Shown: piece by piece, positions 6,558-17,364 of the stretch
How positions within the stretch are numbered: position 1 is the stretch's first letter
Layout: every line of letters starts with the position of its first letter
Virus record (IMG/VR): IMGVR_UViG_3300027782_000424
Coordinates: 1-21,355 of that record
From: a virus
DNA length: 21,355 bases
Direction: 5' to 3' (one strand)
Notes under the pieces: generated by a model
What the model was told of the DNA's origin: nothing
The model's database searches: none
The model's input: only the letters and a program-made list of their open reading frames with translations
Translations under genes and position numbers: made by a program

Positions 6558-6743
6558 ATGACTGAACGCCTAATCATTAACAGCACAGACATCGGCCAAG
6601 GTTTTACCATTGACCAACTAGAAAATGAGCGTGGAGATTTGTACTATCGAGTTTGCAAAGGAGGCGTTTGTCGTTACTGCGAAGATGAATACTTTGCTCA
6701 CATGTATGCTGAAAGCATGGGCTGGAACCGATTTATTGACTAA
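6558..6743 (+). CDS. Unknown 61-aa protein with Cys cluster
   Basis: Starts 2 nt after the TM/coiled-coil gene. 61 residues with a CKGGVCRYC cluster (three Cys in nine residues) after an acidic N-terminal half, suggesting a small metal-binding knuckle. The C-terminus ends GWNRFID. Its last 11 nt overlap the 3' end of the oppositely oriented HNH gene, so the natural end of this gene may have been altered by that insertion. No family is recognised. Confidence 0.6.
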   Translation: MTERLIINSTDIGQGFTIDQLENERGDLYYRVCKGGVCRYCEDEYFAHMYAESMGWNRFID

Positions 6744-7041
6744 GCCAGTAGCAAATAGCATCTTCTAAGTGCGGCTCCCAAAAATGCTGCATCCGAAACC
6801 ACTCTTTCCAATGACTGGAACTTTTACGTACATTACAATTAAAACAAGCAGCTACAAGATTAGATGTAGAAGTTTCTCCACCTTTTGATTTAGGTCGCAC
6901 ATGATCAAGTGTTCCAGATTTACCTAGATATTCCCGACAATATGCACATCTGTAATCCCAACCCTTAAGTATCTGATCTCTAAACCTGGCTTTAGCCTGG
7001 CGTTTACTCACAAAACCAAGTTCCTCGTCGATGTAGTCCAC
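6733..7041 (-). CDS. HNH endonuclease, antisense to the late operon
   Basis: 102 residues. A classic HNH core: zinc pair C32-x2-C35, catalytic-strand motif LDHVRPKSKGG with D46 and H47, N61 in the 'SNLV' segment, and second zinc pair C66-x2-C69 (ACFNC) followed by N70. The N-terminal helix (SKRQAKARFRDQILKGW) and basic surface suit DNA binding. It starts with GTG. It is the only leftward gene inside the rightward block and overlaps its convergent neighbour by 11 nt, typical of a free-standing homing-type endonuclease gene that has moved in. An alternative is a packaging-associated HNH, but no terminase is nearby. Confidence 0.85.
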   Translation of the reverse strand: MDYIDEELGFVSKRQAKARFRDQILKGWDYRCAYCREYLGKSGTLDHVRPKSKGGETSTSNLVAACFNCNVRKSSSHWKEWFRMQHFWEPHLEDAICYWLSQ

Positions 7042-9811: not shown

Positions 9812-10027
9812 CTAGCCACCCCACCTGAGGTCCTGATCCACCTTTTTTCGCCATGCCCCAAGCTGTGCCTTGCGACTGGTATTTCGAGTCTTGGTACATC
9901 CCTTGCGTATATCCCTAGCCCAAGCCAAAAAACCGGCCATACGCTGGAGATCCGCAGTCTTAGCCTGCCGAATCTCCTCGTACAGCCAGGCGAGGATAAT
10001 TTGCCTTCCCGTCCGCGCGGGACTCAC
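9812..10027 (-). CDS. Unknown basic early protein
   Basis: 71 residues from GTG 10027, overlapping the TGA of the 52-aa gene (GTGA). Two helices (QIILAWLYEEIRQAKTADLQRMAGFLAWARDIRK) are followed by a strongly basic segment (CTKTRNTSRKAQLGAWRKK). The composition suggests nucleic-acid binding. The overlapping start supports it as real. No family is recognised. Confidence 0.55.
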   Translation of the reverse strand: MSPARTGRQIILAWLYEEIRQAKTADLQRMAGFLAWARDIRKGCTKTRNTSRKAQLGAWRKKVDQDLRWGG

Positions 10028-10182
10028 AAGTCTTGACTTGAGACTGTCATTATTTTGACAATAGTATCCTGTGGAAAACGTGCCAAAGCCAGCTGTCTAG
10101 CCTTGAACGCATCCTCCGCTTGAACTGTGTAGGTATGGATAGCGCCCTGCTTGGGACGCAGTAATACCTGGTAATACGTCAT
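10024..10182 (-). CDS. Unknown 52-aa early protein between HNH and basic protein
   Basis: An open frame tied to both neighbours: its ATG overlaps the HNH stop (ATGA) and its TGA overlaps the next GTG (GTGA). Product: MTYYQVLLRPKQGAIHTYTV, then QAEDAFKARQLALARFP and DTIVKIMTVSSQDL. The strand-helix-strand outline resembles the middle of the protein at 8983. Perfect 4-nt overlaps at both ends are the main reason to call it real despite its size. Confidence 0.65.
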   Translation of the reverse strand: MTYYQVLLRPKQGAIHTYTVQAEDAFKARQLALARFPQDTIVKIMTVSSQDL

Positions 10183-10697
10183 TTCGCTTGGTCCCATGAG
10201 TCTCCGATTTTGGCCTCTGGTACAGAACTGTAGGTTTTCCGCCGCACAATCTGACTAATGTGAGCTTGACATACTCCGTAGTCAGCACCGATGTGTGCTT
10301 GAGTTTCTCCTTTGGTATACCGCGCTCGTATATCCTGCACTTGCTCTACGGTAAAACGAGCGCTGTAGTGATTTATACCCTTAGGAGTACAGTTAGGCCG
10401 ACGCTGTTTTTTATACGCATCTTGCATATTCAGGCCGTGAGTACCTTCTTGTAAATGGCTAGGTCTAACACATGCAGGATTGTCGCATTGGTGCATAACA
10501 TACTTTGGTATGTACCCAAGTGTCCAAGATAGCGATAATGCATGTGCCCGTTCAAGCTTTCCATTAACCCGAAAGCGTCCGTACCCATCGTTATTTGTGG
10601 CACCTTGCCACTCCCAGCAGCAAGTAGGCATGTGCACCTGGTGCGTACCAGCCACATTGACTTTGGCCCAAAAGCGAGGCTCTATACTCTGATCCAT
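10179..10697 (-). CDS. HNH homing-type endonuclease with HTH and polymerase-like tail
   Basis: 172 residues. Residues 26-92 form an HNH_3-type nuclease: CCWEWQGATNNDGYGRF (26-42), AHALSL with His52, MHQCDNPACVRPSHL with His69, Cys71, Cys76 and His81, then GTHGLNMQD. Residues 115-158 form a helix-turn-helix DNA-binding module (FTVEQVQDIRARYTKGE...HISQIVRRKTY) like those on phage homing nucleases. The last 12 residues (EAKIGDSWDQAK) copy the C-terminus of the neighbouring DNA polymerase (EAKIGNSWDECK). The gene lies 63 bp downstream of the polymerase, behind a large hairpin. It is probably a free-standing homing endonuclease that inserted at the 3' end of the polymerase gene. Confidence 0.88.
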   Translation of the reverse strand: MDQSIEPRFWAKVNVAGTHQVHMPTCCWEWQGATNNDGYGRFRVNGKLERAHALSLSWTLGYIPKYVMHQCDNPACVRPSHLQEGTHGLNMQDAYKKQRRPNCTPKGINHYSARFTVEQVQDIRARYTKGETQAHIGADYGVCQAHISQIVRRKTYSSVPEAKIGDSWDQAK

Positions 10698-10701
10698 CAG
10701 C

Positions 10702-10759
10702 CGGTAGTGCGGTTGGTCGGGGGCTGGGCGTTAGAGCGCCGCAGCCCAACCACTATACC
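10702..10759. other. Long imperfect hairpin between polymerase and HNH gene
   Basis: Plus-strand arms: GGTTGG (10711-10716) with CCAACC (10746-10751), GCTG (10723-10726) with CAGC (10742-10745), and GGCG (10727-10730) with CGCC (10737-10740), loop TTAGAG, one bulged G and a 6-nt internal bulge. Outer bases GGTAGT...ACTATACC extend it. It fills nearly the whole 63-bp gap, ends about 5 nt before the HNH ATG, and has no U-tail. Possible roles are translational shut-off of the HNH gene, an mRNA 3' end, or the homing site. Confidence 0.7.
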
Positions 10760-10760
10760 G

Positions 10761-12584
10761 CTACTTACACTCGTCCCAGGAGTTGCCAATCTTTGCTTCA
10801 GCTGCTGGGGGTATGGCATCCAACCACTCAGCTTCGCACTCTTCCATTACAGAAGACAAGATACCGGCCCACCGCTCGGCGTGTTCTTCTCGCACAAGGC
10901 ACAAAACCTCGTCATGTACCACGCCAGCTAGCCGTACGATGTCCTCGCCATCTGCGTGGAGCGGTTCCCACAGCTTGCCAAGGGTCCGCTTGAGAACAGC
11001 TGCGCCAGCACCTTGAATCGGCGTGTTACAGCGCGTGGTGAGTTTGTTGTGCTCGCCAGGTAGAAACCTCCGCATCCCAGAGCGGCGAATGTAGATGGGT
11101 GCAAGGCCCGAAGACGCATCAGCAGCCCGAGCATTTTCGCGCTGCCACTTGCTGATCCCCTTGTAAGCAGCGTGGAACTTCTCCCTGATTTCCGCAGCCT
11201 CAGCCAAATCCATTTGGATTCCCATTGCGGCGGCGTAATTACGCAACCCTTTAGCTCCCGATCCATACAGCAAACCAAAGTTTGCTGACTTAGCAATTTG
11301 TCGCTGGTCCTTGGTGACATCGGCCTCATCAACGCCATAGATCTGCATCGCAGTAAGAGTGTGTAAGTCCGTCCCCTCCTGGAACGCCTGGATCATCAAC
11401 GCATCATTAGCCTCAGCTGCAGCCAGCCTTAACTCCATCTGCGCGTAGTCCGCAACCACCAGTTTGAATCCTTTTGGAGCCTGAACGCAGGCCCGAAACC
11501 TTACGTCTCTTGGTATTTGCTGCAAGTTGGGACTCATGCAAGACATGCGGCCCGTATCAGCCCCAAGTTGCATGTAACTAGCCTTGATAAAGCCATCATC
11601 CGTAATATTTTTAAGTAATGTTTCAGCCATCTGGCGCCGCTTCTCAAGTCGCTTCCACTTCAAGTATTCCGCAATAACCGGGTGGTTTCCGATGTACTCC
11701 TGAAGCGCCAACTTACTAGAGCTGGGTCTACCAGACTTCTGATCAATCGGTGGCTCACCTAGTAAGGCAGTGAACTTTTTGAGCAGCTGTACGGGACTGT
11801 TTAAGTTAAAAAACTCCTTAGTCCCAAGACGTTCAGCATCCTCTTTTTTATAAAGAATTGTGTTGTGTTCAGGATCTCTAGGTAATTTATGATCGTCAGG
11901 TAGAGCAGCATCAAAGTTAGCGATAAAAGCTTCTCCCGCTTCGAAGTGGTCATCATCAAGATCATCGATAAGTTTATCAAGCAATTGTTTATTAAACGGA
12001 AGGCCCGTTCGATTTAATAAAGCCATTGACTGGAGCGCCCGGCATTCCAAATCCCAAGCCCTGTGCAAATTGCCCTCCGCCATCCGTTGGTTGATGGGGC
12101 CATCCAGCTGAATCAAAAGATCAGCATCGTAGGCGGCGTACTCCAGTTGCTCTTGAGTCAGATCACCAGACCAATTGCTCTTCTGCTGCTCCTTGGAGAC
12201 GTCCAGCTTCAAGTACCGCTTGACCACATGGGCCAGACCATGTTTTAGGTTGGGCATTCCATTGGTCAGGATGCGACTAGCCAGCATGGTGCAACGGATG
12301 GTACCAGCCGGGTGGATCCCATGTACTTGGAGCCAGCCAATATCAAATGCAGCATTGTGCGCCAACCAAAACCGCTGCTGGTTGAACAAATCCAGCAACA
12401 CATTCCAGCCATCGTCGTCTAGATCCCAGCAATCAACAATCACTGGTGTCCTATCAAGTGCTGCAAACTGCAGCAGTCGTAGGCCCCCAGGTGTGGGTTG
12501 GAGGCCAGTTGTTTCACAATCAAATGCAATGGTTGTTGCATTCTGCATCGAGCCAATATGCTCGACACCCATTAGGTATTTCAT
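10761..12584 (-). CDS. Family A DNA polymerase with 3'-5' exonuclease
   Basis: The 607-residue phage replicative polymerase (Pol I / T7 type). Exonuclease motifs: ExoI FDCETT (Asp22, Glu24), ExoII AHNAAFD (Asp81), ExoIII Y149-AAY-D153. Polymerase motifs: A VVADYAQMELR (Asp379), B RQIAKSANFGLLYG (Arg428, Lys432, Phe436, Tyr440) and C VHDEV (His557, Asp558, Glu559). Motif A has Ala-Gln-Met where most have Ser-Gln-Ile. Phe436 stands at the position which in Taq (Phe667) goes with discrimination against dideoxynucleotides. There is no 5' nuclease domain. The C-terminal EAKIGNSWDECK recalls the G-x-x-W tail of T7-like enzymes. ATG 12584 is preceded by no clear Shine-Dalgarno; Met13 is an alternative start. 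Confidence 0.96.
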   Translation of the reverse strand: MKYLMGVEHIGSMQNATTIAFDCETTGLQPTPGGLRLLQFAALDRTPVIVDCWDLDDDGWNVLLDLFNQQRFWLAHNAAFDIGWLQVHGIHPAGTIRCTMLASRILTNGMPNLKHGLAHVVKRYLKLDVSKEQQKSNWSGDLTQEQLEYAAYDADLLIQLDGPINQRMAEGNLHRAWDLECRALQSMALLNRTGLPFNKQLLDKLIDDLDDDHFEAGEAFIANFDAALPDDHKLPRDPEHNTILYKKEDAERLGTKEFFNLNSPVQLLKKFTALLGEPPIDQKSGRPSSSKLALQEYIGNHPVIAEYLKWKRLEKRRQMAETLLKNITDDGFIKASYMQLGADTGRMSCMSPNLQQIPRDVRFRACVQAPKGFKLVVADYAQMELRLAAAEANDALMIQAFQEGTDLHTLTAMQIYGVDEADVTKDQRQIAKSANFGLLYGSGAKGLRNYAAAMGIQMDLAEAAEIREKFHAAYKGISKWQRENARAADASSGLAPIYIRRSGMRRFLPGEHNKLTTRCNTPIQGAGAAVLKRTLGKLWEPLHADGEDIVRLAGVVHDEVLCLVREEHAERWAGILSSVMEECEAEWLDAIPPAAEAKIGNSWDECK

Positions 12585-12890: not shown

Positions 12891-13376
12891 CTACTGTACT
12901 ACATCTACAAGGGCTCTGGGCGTGAAAACGCAACAATCCGTTGCAAAGTCTCCACCAGCCTCAGGAAACCCAAACCCACACTGCTCTTTATTCCAGCTGG
13001 AACAGTCAGTGCAGTACGTAATTGGACCTGTGCGTGGCGGGTACAACTCCTGGTAGATCTCCTTGTACATAGAGCCCGTCTGGATCAGCGAGATGGACTG
13101 GCGTGATACCCCGTAGGTTTCAGCCAGGATACGTTGGGGCAACTTAGAAGTAATAATTTTTATAGCATCCTCACGACTAACTCTGCGCCATAAGGATTTT
13201 CTAGTTTCGTTGGCATCCCAACGATTTTTGTAGGGCTGTCCTTTACCTTCATCTGTAAAAAATGTCCATCGATATTTACAAACTTGGCACTCAAAGCGGC
13301 GACGTCGTTTACCGCGAACAGTTAAACGACTTTCCAGTAATCTACGATTTTCAGACTTGCAATCAGGACAATCCAT
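12891..13376 (-). CDS. Zinc-ribbon + helix-turn-helix DNA-binding protein
   Basis: 161 residues from ATG 13376; a longer frame from 13511 overlaps the upstream gene out of phase and is rejected. The zinc ribbon at 3-37 has C3-x2-C6 and C30-x2-C33 with a basic hairpin (RLTVRGKRRRRFE). A helix-turn-helix follows at about 65-105 (SREDAIKIITSKLPQRILAE, YGVSRQSISLIQTGSMYKE). A C-terminal Cys box has C122-x2-C125, C133, and C148-C149 within YCTDC...QCGFGFPEAGG...DCCVF. There is no nuclease motif. It could be a phage transcription regulator or a relic of a mobile nuclease that kept only DNA-binding parts. The zinc-ribbon/HTH coding part is visibly more AT-rich than its neighbours. It overlaps the gene before it by 14 nt. 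Confidence 0.75.
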   Translation of the reverse strand: MDCPDCKSENRRLLESRLTVRGKRRRRFECQVCKYRWTFFTDEGKGQPYKNRWDANETRKSLWRRVSREDAIKIITSKLPQRILAETYGVSRQSISLIQTGSMYKEIYQELYPPRTGPITYCTDCSSWNKEQCGFGFPEAGGDFATDCCVFTPRALVDVVQ

Positions 13377-13548
13377 CCAGCTCGTCGGCAATGGCGAGGA
13401 TGCGGTCATAACACTGTTGAGCAGTGTCATTCGGGAATAAATAACCAGCAGCAGCGCGAAGAGCGGCGGCCATGGCATCGACGTTGGCAGCTTCAAAATC
13501 GCCGTAAGCATTCAGCACTGCCTGCGCGGTGGGGGAGAGGTTAGTCAT
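13363..13548 (-). CDS. Short helical early protein
   Basis: 61 residues. The pattern LSPTAQAVLNAYGDF...VDAMAAALRAAAGYLFPND...CYDRILAIADELDGL recalls a family of short proteins, common in cyanobacteria and their phages, with 'SPAAQAVLNA' and 'AAALRAAA' segments and no known function. The ATG overlaps the stop of the 32-aa gene (ATGA). Confidence 0.75.
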   Translation of the reverse strand: MTNLSPTAQAVLNAYGDFEAANVDAMAAALRAAAGYLFPNDTAQQCYDRILAIADELDGLS

Positions 13549-14233: not shown

Positions 14234-14742
14234 GTTTTGGAAGCGGTAACGGTGGAGTCAAAGTTGTAATGGCCAGTAACTGAATAATCTTGAGCTGGAG
14301 TTTGTGACATGCGATGGAATACAATCTGCCCAATACGCATCCCAGGCCAAATAGCAACAGGGTGCATAGAACGTGCATTCTGTAACTCCAACGTAAGTTT
14401 GGATCCACTCCAGCCAGGATCGCAATAACCAGCCATCAGATGCTCAATGCCTGATCTTGCTCTGGAACTTTTAAGCGCAAATTGCCCAGCAATGTTGGTA
14501 GGCAAAAAGAACGTTTCTTCCGTACATGCCAGCACAAATTCGTGAGGCTGTAGATAGAAAGGCTCCTCCTGCGTGTGACCACCGATGTCAATGGGGATCA
14601 TGGTGGGCCATTCGGCCACCTCAACCAATAAATCACAACCGAGTCTCACATCGAGACTAGCTGGATTGACGAGAGCTGGATCGTAGGGAGTCACAAGGCC
14701 CTGCTTGCACAGGGCCCGGATCTCTGTGTCACAGAGAATCAT
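14230..14742 (-). CDS. dcd: dCTP deaminase (dUTPase superfamily)
   Basis: 170 residues. Deaminates dCTP to dUTP, feeding dUMP and then dTTP synthesis. Signature segments in order: NPASLDVRLG (26-35), KSSRARSGI (91-99; the usual form is RSSLARLGL), GYCDPGWSG (105-113), LTLELQN with the likely catalytic Glu119, and PGMRIGQIVF (133-142). The usual C-terminal lid ends in a shorter form here. Length is slightly under the 190 or so residues of the bacterial enzyme. A dUTPase cannot be fully excluded, but the RSS-x-AR and D-P-G-W-S-G pattern favours a deaminase. It overlaps both neighbours by 4 nt. Confidence 0.9.
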   Translation of the reverse strand: MILCDTEIRALCKQGLVTPYDPALVNPASLDVRLGCDLLVEVAEWPTMIPIDIGGHTQEEPFYLQPHEFVLACTEETFFLPTNIAGQFALKSSRARSGIEHLMAGYCDPGWSGSKLTLELQNARSMHPVAIWPGMRIGQIVFHRMSQTPAQDYSVTGHYNFDSTVTASKT

Positions 14743-15116
14743 GCGGCAGTTTGCTGGAGATGAACGTGGTTCCAGGTTTTGCCGTATTTAATGGAGTTGA
14801 TGGTAGTTACATGTACCTTGTAATCGCGGCAGATCGCGCCAGCTTTTTCGCCAGCAGCAAGACGCCGTTTGATTTCCATCACCTTGCTAACAGTCAGTAA
14901 AGCCCTCGCATGGCGTTTGGACTTACGAGTCTTAGGTTGAGACTTGACTGGAGCAGTATCTGCCGGAGCCAGCACCGACTTAGTGATTGTGGGTTGCTCC
15001 CATGTAGCAGTTTGAGCACCACCAATAATGAAAGTGATGTTGTCCATGGCAGTTGCAATTTCAGTCACATAAGATGTGAGCTGATGCACTTCGCGGTCAG
15101 AAAGAAGAGTGATCAT
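14739..15116 (-). CDS. DNA-binding protein with homing-nuclease-type HTH
   Basis: 125 residues. The N-terminal half (DREVHQLTSYVTEIATAMDN) is helical and acidic. A Pro/Thr-rich linker with a basic cluster (KTRKSKRHARALL) leads to a C-terminal helix-turn-helix (TVSKVMEIKRRLAAGEKAGA then ICRDYKVHVTTINSIKYGKT) that aligns along its whole length with the C-terminal module of the HNH protein at 10179. No nuclease residues are present. A small regulator, or a nuclease-derived DNA-binding relic, fits best. Confidence 0.7.
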   Translation of the reverse strand: MITLLSDREVHQLTSYVTEIATAMDNITFIIGGAQTATWEQPTITKSVLAPADTAPVKSQPKTRKSKRHARALLTVSKVMEIKRRLAAGEKAGAICRDYKVHVTTINSIKYGKTWNHVHLQQTAA

Positions 15117-16319: not shown

Positions 16320-16640
16320 TTATGTTGTGGGCACCCCAAGCTGCTCGGGGCTGTAGGCAGTAAGGACGCAGACATCGGCACCTTGGCGTAGGCACTGCCC
16401 CACGGTGTAGTGGAAGATGTGCTCCGCCTCGTCACACTCGTCGATCTGGAACTGATCCACCTCCACAGGGCGGCCAGCCCGGTACCAAGTCAGCCGCACG
16501 ATGGAGTGGATCTCATCGGGCAGCGGACCCGTGGTAAAGCCCAGCGTGGGACGCCGGGGCGGTTTGGGCTGGGACTTACTGGCCATGAGGAAAAGTAGCC
16601 AGCTGGCTACACGCATCAGTCCAAGGTAGAGGTTAGGCAT
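16320..16640 (-). CDS. Unknown early protein, N-terminal hydrophobic segment or internal start
   Basis: 106 residues from ATG 16640, which overlaps the HNH stop by 8 nt (ATGCCTAA). The first 20 residues (MPNLYLGLMRVASWLLFLMA) are hydrophobic and could be a membrane anchor. A second candidate start, Met20 (16583), gives a soluble 87-residue protein beginning MASKSQPKPPRRP. The body (DEIHSIVRLTWYRAGRPVEV then a DECDEAEHIFHYTVGQCLRQ helix) looks like a compact alpha/beta domain. The overlap favours the longer start. Function unknown. Confidence 0.65.
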   Translation of the reverse strand: MPNLYLGLMRVASWLLFLMASKSQPKPPRRPTLGFTTGPLPDEIHSIVRLTWYRAGRPVEVDQFQIDECDEAEHIFHYTVGQCLRQGADVCVLTAYSPEQLGVPTT

Positions 16641-17364
16641 CAGTAAATTCGGTGTAGTTCACCAGGCGGTCGGATTTCCCACGGTTACAGTCTGAGCATA
16701 AAGTTCTTAAATTGTGTAACTCGTTACTACCACCTTTGGAAACTGGAATTGTGTGATCTACCTCAAGAACGGCTCCTAGTGCAGGTGACGCCCCGCAGTC
16801 CATGCACCGAAAACCGTCTCTTTCCAGAACTTTATGTCGTGTACACACTGAAACATTGCGGTATTTATTCATAGCACGAAAATACTTTTTAGCGATTTTT
16901 CCACCTGATACATTATCAGATTTTGCAAAAGCATTAGATGAAATTCTGATACCCGAGTATTCAAATATATCTTTAAACGCTTTACCTAAAAAGTATATGT
17001 GATCTTCTCCAAAAGCGTTAGAACTTTTACCTGACATGTGAAGAACCCAATCAAAAATATCTGCCATACAGCTGATTTCACCAAAATCGATTGAGTAGTA
17101 ACAAGCCTCGTGGTACAACTCGTAAACCTCTTTGCTGTCAACTTCTACACAGCGTAGTTCCCACGGACCCCACGTTTTATACAGATTGTCGGCACCCTTT
17201 ACAAAAGGAAAATATGAATTTATACGGTCTTGTGCAGTCTGTAACGAATACACGGGTGTTTTTTCCTGTTGATCTAGAACAATTTGTGTGTGAGGATTGG
17301 AGTGCGTAGGCATAGGATCTTCGGAGCAGGCTCCGGGCGTAGGTGAACGGGGCAATGCGGCCAC
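16633..17364 (-). CDS. HNH endonuclease (McrA-like core) with unknown N-terminal domain
   Basis: 243 residues from GTG 17364, or 226 from ATG 17313 (MPTHSNPHTQ), which looks at least as good. The C-terminal HNH core (long-form numbering) has C187-x2-C190, VDHTIPVSKGG with Asp203 and His204, Asn218 in 'LHNLR', C223-x2-C226 and N227. The N-terminal 150 residues (TAQDRINSYFPFVKGADNLY, then many aromatic and acidic residues) do not match a family I know and may set specificity. The gene is clearly more AT-rich than the primase-helicase gene before it, a sign of separate origin. It lies just downstream of the helicase gene behind a GC-rich hairpin, and overlaps the next gene by 8 nt. Confidence 0.85.
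   Translation of the reverse strand: MAALPRSPTPGACSEDPMPTHSNPHTQIVLDQQEKTPVYSLQTAQDRINSYFPFVKGADNLYKTWGPWELRCVEVDSKEVYELYHEACYYSIDFGEISCMADIFDWVLHMSGKSSNAFGEDHIYFLGKAFKDIFEYSGIRISSNAFAKSDNVSGGKIAKKYFRAMNKYRNVSVCTRHKVLERDGFRCMDCGASPALGAVLEVDHTIPVSKGGSNELHNLRTLCSDCNRGKSDRLVNYTEFTDA

Follow-up and report, generated by a model that had tools for sequence, protein, structure and literature searches.

A phage HNH endonuclease gene that probably brings along a substitute 3' end for the DNA polymerase gene it interrupts

The stretch of DNA analysed here, referred to as the window, is a virus record of 21,355 bases. A family A DNA polymerase gene with a 3'-5' exonuclease domain occupies positions 10761..12584 on the minus strand (Pfam DNA_pol_A, 4.9e-70; DNA_pol_A_exo1, 1.4e-24), with its stop codon at 10761-10763. 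This stop codon and a 63-nt leader (together 10698..10763, minus strand; fold -34.3 kcal/mol, z -2.9), which pattern scans found to be common to four nuclease types, are followed by an HNH homing endonuclease open reading frame (ORF) of 172 aa at 10179..10697 on the same strand, closing with a stop codon at 10179-10181. The gene beyond it (10024..10182, minus strand), whose product begins MTYYQVLL, has an ATG that overlaps the HNH stop codon (ATGA). The same overlap is found in HNH-free relatives (L001-L005 and L033), which share this layout with 129-147 of 160 nt identical.

The product of the ORF is predicted to be an HNH_3-type nuclease, combining an HNH/His-Me finger with a C-terminal, DNA-binding helix-turn-helix. 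Pfam reported HNH_3 at 22.6 bits (8.2e-05), which is below the cut-off of 24.8, together with zf-His_Me_endon (0.0011) and a Sigma70_r4-like match (4e-04). In an alignment of 12 HNH proteins, the H, C, N, P, and H columns were conserved. A PDB search with the HNH sequence gave no match, and an AlphaFold model built from five sequences was poor (mean pLDDT 44), being confident only in the C-terminal helix-turn-helix and not in the tail at residues 154-172.

The polymerase and the HNH ORF have similar ends. The last codons of the polymerase are GAA GCA AAG ATT GGC AAC TCC TGG GAC GAG TGT AAG, and those of the HNH ORF are GAG GCC AAA ATC GGA GAC TCA TGG GAC CAA GCG AAA. The initial annotation had counted, over the nine codons E-A-K-I-G-N/D-S-W-D, six changes at the third base only, one first-base change, and two identical codons, and a codon-by-codon check gave the same numbers. 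When HNH flanks were compared in stop-anchored fashion, this pair of ends scored 53, and because 1500 mismatched pairs reached at most 37, the similarity is not due to chance. The alignment also places the end of the HNH family proper at a KTWRHV-like motif, and the 12-residue tail beyond it is therefore extra. No HNH protein located away from a polymerase was found with this tail; full-length matches bearing the tail occurred only behind this polymerase.

HNH-free relatives indicate which of the two ends is original. The initial annotation had proposed that an inserted element left the original polymerase end on the nuclease, and that relatives lacking the HNH gene should in that case match the HNH tail better. 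Close relatives were taken from viral contigs, and the HNH-free ones (L001-L005 and L033) share 89-95% protein identity with the window polymerase. Their polymerases end in EAKIGDSW(D/N)QAK, and their stop codon (TAA in L033) overlaps or directly precedes the MTYYQVLL gene. The HNH tail matched these ends at 32-35 of 36 nt, compared with 22-25 of 36 nt for the window polymerase's own tail, and the gene downstream of the HNH ORF is the same one that lies behind the HNH-free polymerases. The HNH ORF therefore carries the ancestral polymerase end, as had been proposed. This native remnant, the last 12 polymerase codons fused in frame to the HNH ORF, lies at 10182..10217 (minus strand) and matches L003 at 35 of 36 nt and L002 at 34 of 36 nt.

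The replaced part of the polymerase is larger than the short repeat suggests. Codon differences between the window and L001/L002 amount to about 21-24% before the tail and jump to about 75-80% over the last 48 codons (10764..10907, minus strand), a segment that groups with the tails of other carriers. The jump starts immediately after GTG GTA CAT GAC GAG (VVHDE; 10908..10922, minus strand), the codons of motif C, which are the last native codons and form a fixed left boundary of the foreign segment in codon-by-codon comparisons of carriers with their nearest HNH-free relatives. In the window, the only surviving native copy of the replaced end is the 12 codons at the end of the HNH ORF. The idea that the element brought its own gene end thus holds, with a size of 48 rather than 12 codons. 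The description of this end as recoded fares less well: the two ends do differ at most synonymous sites, but synonymous divergence is not in excess. Among shared residues, the fractions with identical codons were 0.23-0.41 in L133 and in carriers with the window's nuclease type (type A, below), against means of 0.31-0.37 in HNH-free pairs of equal protein distance, and deliberate synonymous recoding in the polymerase was rejected on these grounds. The foreign end is more aptly seen as a homologous one, acquired from elsewhere and associated with the element for a long time. Its composition in the window showed no shift, with a GC3 of 0.56 compared with 0.54 in the gene body.

The same arrangement was found in other polymerase lineages. 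A pattern scan for the leader sequence returned eight viral contigs, all with the leader immediately after a polymerase of this family; L133 and L135-L137 came from a second polymerase scan. Behind this leader we distinguished four nuclease types, of which A and B are HNH proteins and C and D are HNH proteins with an AP2-like end, this end being assigned by eye. Type A HNH genes with a fused tail are present in the window, L106, L109, L111 (= L082), and L135-L137, the last three originating from three metagenomes. At least four polymerase lineages carry type A, each fused in frame to the native tail of its own lineage, so that the direction read in the window is repeated in three more lineages: the HNH tail matched the native end of its lineage at 32 of 33 nt (L106/L114), 31 of 33 (L109/L114), 30 of 33 (L111/L128), and 32 of 33 (L135/L156). 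The left boundary, after GAC GA[A/G], is common to the window, L106, L109, L137, L133, and L082. The cleanest occupied and empty pair, almost isogenic, is L135/L137 versus L156. The L137 and L156 polymerases differ at about 1% of codons in the body and at 35 of 48 codons in the tail, and L135 and L156 are identical at 157 of 157 bases downstream of the stop. In this set, no lineage was seen with HNH-free polymerases that carry the foreign tail at the same boundary.

The retained tail could in principle be a functional mimic of the polymerase C-terminus, selected as a protein, for example to bind a partner of the polymerase, and its presence in frame in all five type A representatives would agree with this. 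However, the tail DNA, synonymous sites included, is the native polymerase DNA of each particular lineage, and it continues into the native overlap with the following gene. Moreover, the leader and foreign tails also accompany nuclease types B, C, and D, which retain little or nothing of the native tail, and in-frame fusion is therefore not obligatory. We consider the mimic explanation highly improbable.

The foreign tail and the nuclease have moved together among lineages. On a tree of polymerase bodies, the 10 carriers are scattered: nine changes are needed, of which well-supported branches force at least six, and shuffling gives a mean of 9.5. The tree of the 48-codon tails needs three changes, a value as low being reached in 0 of 500 shuffles, and places seven of the 10 carriers in one clade with a support of 91; the three carriers outside this main clade are L027, L031, and L108. 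L106 and L109 differ by 3.5% in the tail and in the HNH gene alike but by 11% in the body, which also indicates joint movement. Between the window HNH and those of other carriers, dN is about 0.15 and dS exceeds 2, and purifying selection acts on both the 48-codon tail and the HNH gene. Close relatives thus differ in whether the nuclease gene occupies the site, and the gene spreads between lineages, as a homing endonuclease gene does. Phage genomes are mosaic and the tail resembles an ordinary divergent polymerase end, so one might suppose that ordinary homologous recombination exchanged the polymerase 3' end for that of a distant phage, with the downstream HNH gene hitch-hiking. Such exchange is hard to reconcile with the same left boundary in at least five lineages, with a right boundary that keeps the native tail in place and in frame, or with seven carrier tails forming one clade while the carriers are scattered on the body tree. 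We regard it as unlikely, although it is the least improbable of the alternatives.

The leader is conserved in structure as well as position. An RNAalifold consensus of ten leaders has 14 pairs, five of them with compensatory changes, and 11 of the 14 lie in a conserved two-stem hairpin with a bulged C and a hexaloop (10720..10748, minus strand). The distant L208 leader has different letters but the same two-stem, bulged-C, hexaloop shape. In L192 (10489-11100) and L195, the leader and an HNH-AP2-like gene are found two genes downstream of the polymerase, placed precisely at the stop codon of a different gene; the leader therefore belongs to nuclease cassettes rather than to the polymerase. 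The hairpin leader probably controls translation of the nuclease. Read-through from the leader into the HNH ORF was considered and dropped, as the leader frame contains a stop in the window.

Group I introns with HNH nucleases are known from phage DNA polymerase genes, including those encoding I-HmuI, I-BasI, I-PfoP3I, and I-TslI. We take PolI site 881 to lie in motif C (H881-D882-E883 of E. coli Pol I). The HNH-carrying phiI and W31 introns have been reported at this PolI site (PMC3428280). If the present element were a group I intron or an intein, the native tail in the HNH ORF would be a second exon, and splicing would restore the polymerase. An Rfam search, however, returned nothing relevant and no intron match, and the polymerase is complete and ended by a stop codon before the leader. 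In addition, the native codons from motif C to codon -13 are missing, so splicing to the leftover tail cannot restore the native protein. These three grounds exclude a group I intron as the present state. An intein would be in frame, without a stop, and with splicing motifs, whereas here a stop codon separates polymerase and HNH ORF. Taken together, an intron or intein is the least probable of the explanations considered. The element resembles the introns in that HNH homing nucleases sit at conserved polymerase sites in both cases, but there is no intron here, and it is the carried gene end, not splicing, that keeps the function of the gene.

We therefore favor a different reading, to which we assign a probability of roughly 0.88: the window contains a mobile homing endonuclease gene equipped with a substitute 3' end for the polymerase gene. 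The parts of the element are the foreign 48-codon polymerase end, a stop codon, the structured leader, and the nuclease ORF. They take the place of a native stretch that begins directly behind motif C and reaches to about 13 codons from the native stop codon; the leftover 11-13 native codons form the end of the HNH ORF, with the overlapping start of the next gene kept. Polymerase genes that lack the element would be cut or nicked by the HNH protein near motif C, where the virus cannot readily change its sequence. In the empty allele the cut may lie near GTGCATGACGA and would be bracketed between motif C and codon -13. Repair would then copy the element from a carrier, crossing over on the left within the strongly conserved DNA of motif C and on the right within the shared tail. 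A carrier would be immune, its foreign tail having no target half-site beyond motif C; just past motif C, native polymerases read DE[IVC]ILLV compared with DEV[LV]CLV in type A carriers. The foreign tail would also be too divergent to recombine with the leftover tail, and the element would then not be looped out. The two ends share no exact match longer than 6 nt, and with so short a match the element would not be expected to be lost by recombination. Protection of the host gene from cleavage and a block to recombinational loss, both put forward in the initial annotation, may both operate; the shortness of the match fits the second.

Arrangements of this kind also occur in other phage genes. 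We surveyed 102 HNH loci by stop-anchored comparison, and a start-anchored version was also run. In the stop-anchored survey, copies of a gene end flanked the nuclease at five loci besides the window; they scored 60-107, compared with at most 37 in the null. In mycobacteriophages SkinnyPete (L199:382-2547) and DocMcStuffins (L213:283-2448), a DNA methylase gene with foreign last 28 codons is followed by an HNH gene and then by the leftover native tail, and near-identical matches to this arrangement were found in Awesomesauce, Misha28, and TootsiePop. GC3 in genes of this type is 0.25 in the foreign tail, 0.88 in the gene body, and 0.84 in the native tail, which lies unused behind the HNH gene. 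HNH-free Sparky (L211) and Piper2020 (L212) have an uninterrupted methylase gene.

L266:348-935 has two copies of LTCGTTTGCG. The native one (GC3 1.0) is joined in frame to the HNH end, and the last stretch of the host gene, which presumably ends like a class II ribonucleotide reductase, is foreign. The start-anchored version yielded a mirror case in L242:2465-3018, where the HNH ORF opens in frame with the apparently native first nine codons of a glycosyltransferase (VRFHVPALP, GC3 1.0) and the downstream glycosyltransferase has a compositionally foreign start (VRFHIPSLP, GC3 0.44). The foreign end thus shows a strong composition shift in SkinnyPete, L266, and L242. L221 and L279 have gene-end duplications in which the HNH gene is oriented opposite to the host gene. 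For L266, L242, L221, and L279 the direction of replacement is read, where it can be, from codon composition rather than from HNH-free relatives.

Across these polymerase, methylase, ribonucleotide reductase-like, and glycosyltransferase genes, and in both orientations, it seems probable, though less so than the reading of the polymerase locus itself, that phages carry a general class of selfish nuclease genes. These would rescue the invaded gene with a foreign copy of its end, either 3' or mirrored 5', and leave the native end fused to or beside the nuclease, which would make them nature's equivalent of engineered homing drives that include a rescue copy. Gordonia phages Bradissa (L214), Wrigley (L215), and DumpsterDude (L217) have the same leftover methylase tail as the mycobacteriophages (SNAVTPPAARDLVGVVAxSLGVA) just after an HNH gene, with an upstream gene that is not a methylase. 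This tail looks like a fossil of a moved element or of a lost methylase.

Searches of the open-access literature gave no description of gene-end replacement by phage nucleases. The closest known systems are mobile ORFs (mORFs) of fungal mitochondria. In Glomus (atp6, atp9, cox2, and nad3) and in atp6 of Allomyces macrogynus, an endonuclease ORF near the 3' end brings a foreign C-terminus, and the native one is displaced downstream (PMC3630166). For the atp6 mORF, the displaced native end matches close relatives at 91% of nucleotides compared with 64% for the foreign end (PMC3630166). As in those systems, the host gene here has a foreign C-terminus and the native C-terminus lies on the far side of the nuclease ORF. 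The fungal nucleases, however, are LAGLIDADG or GIY-YIG proteins in mitochondria, whereas those described here are HNH proteins in tailed phages; the phage element and the fungal mORFs are of the same design but not of the same family. Unlike the fungal mORFs, the present element has a structured leader, a native tail fused in frame to the nuclease, and a retained overlap with the next gene, and it is found in several lineages with empty-site relatives.

Two further phage systems are partly comparable. The nearest phage report, the ShiLan insertion in DNA methylases of actinobacteriophages, concerns an HNH homing insertion whose first 11 codons resemble 11 residues beyond the site (PMC11855218). 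It differs from the present element in reading through in frame with the methylase, and the authors discussed its repeat in terms of a possible intron signature rather than a replacement gene end (PMC11855218). Free-standing phage homing endonuclease genes likewise involve a nuclease gene adjoining an essential gene and conversion of the flanks (PMC10448857, PMC2988022), but the present element interrupts the gene and replaces its end.

Besides introns and inteins, replacement of the gene end would give a homing nuclease a third way to occupy the most conserved point of an essential phage gene and still leave that gene working. The near-isogenic empty and occupied alleles, and isolated mycobacteriophages such as SkinnyPete versus Sparky or Piper2020, make homing, immunity, and rescue directly testable. 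Phage polymerases and methylases can have foreign C-terminal parts, a source of distortion in trees and annotation, and some HNH proteins bear meaningless tails or heads derived from host genes.

Several other ORFs of the window, all on the minus strand, were also noted. There are two more HNH genes (Pfam HNH and HNH_5), at 6733-7041 and 16633-17364, and no gene-end duplication was found beside the window's other HNH or helix-turn-helix genes. An ORF of 125 aa at 14739-15116 ends in a helix-turn-helix and GKTWNHV, resembling the C-terminal part of the HNH proteins described here. It contains no nuclease domain and had no Pfam match, and is possibly a relic or a repressor. At 12891-13511, a 206-aa ORF encodes an NrdR-like zinc ribbon (Pfam, 1.3e-06).
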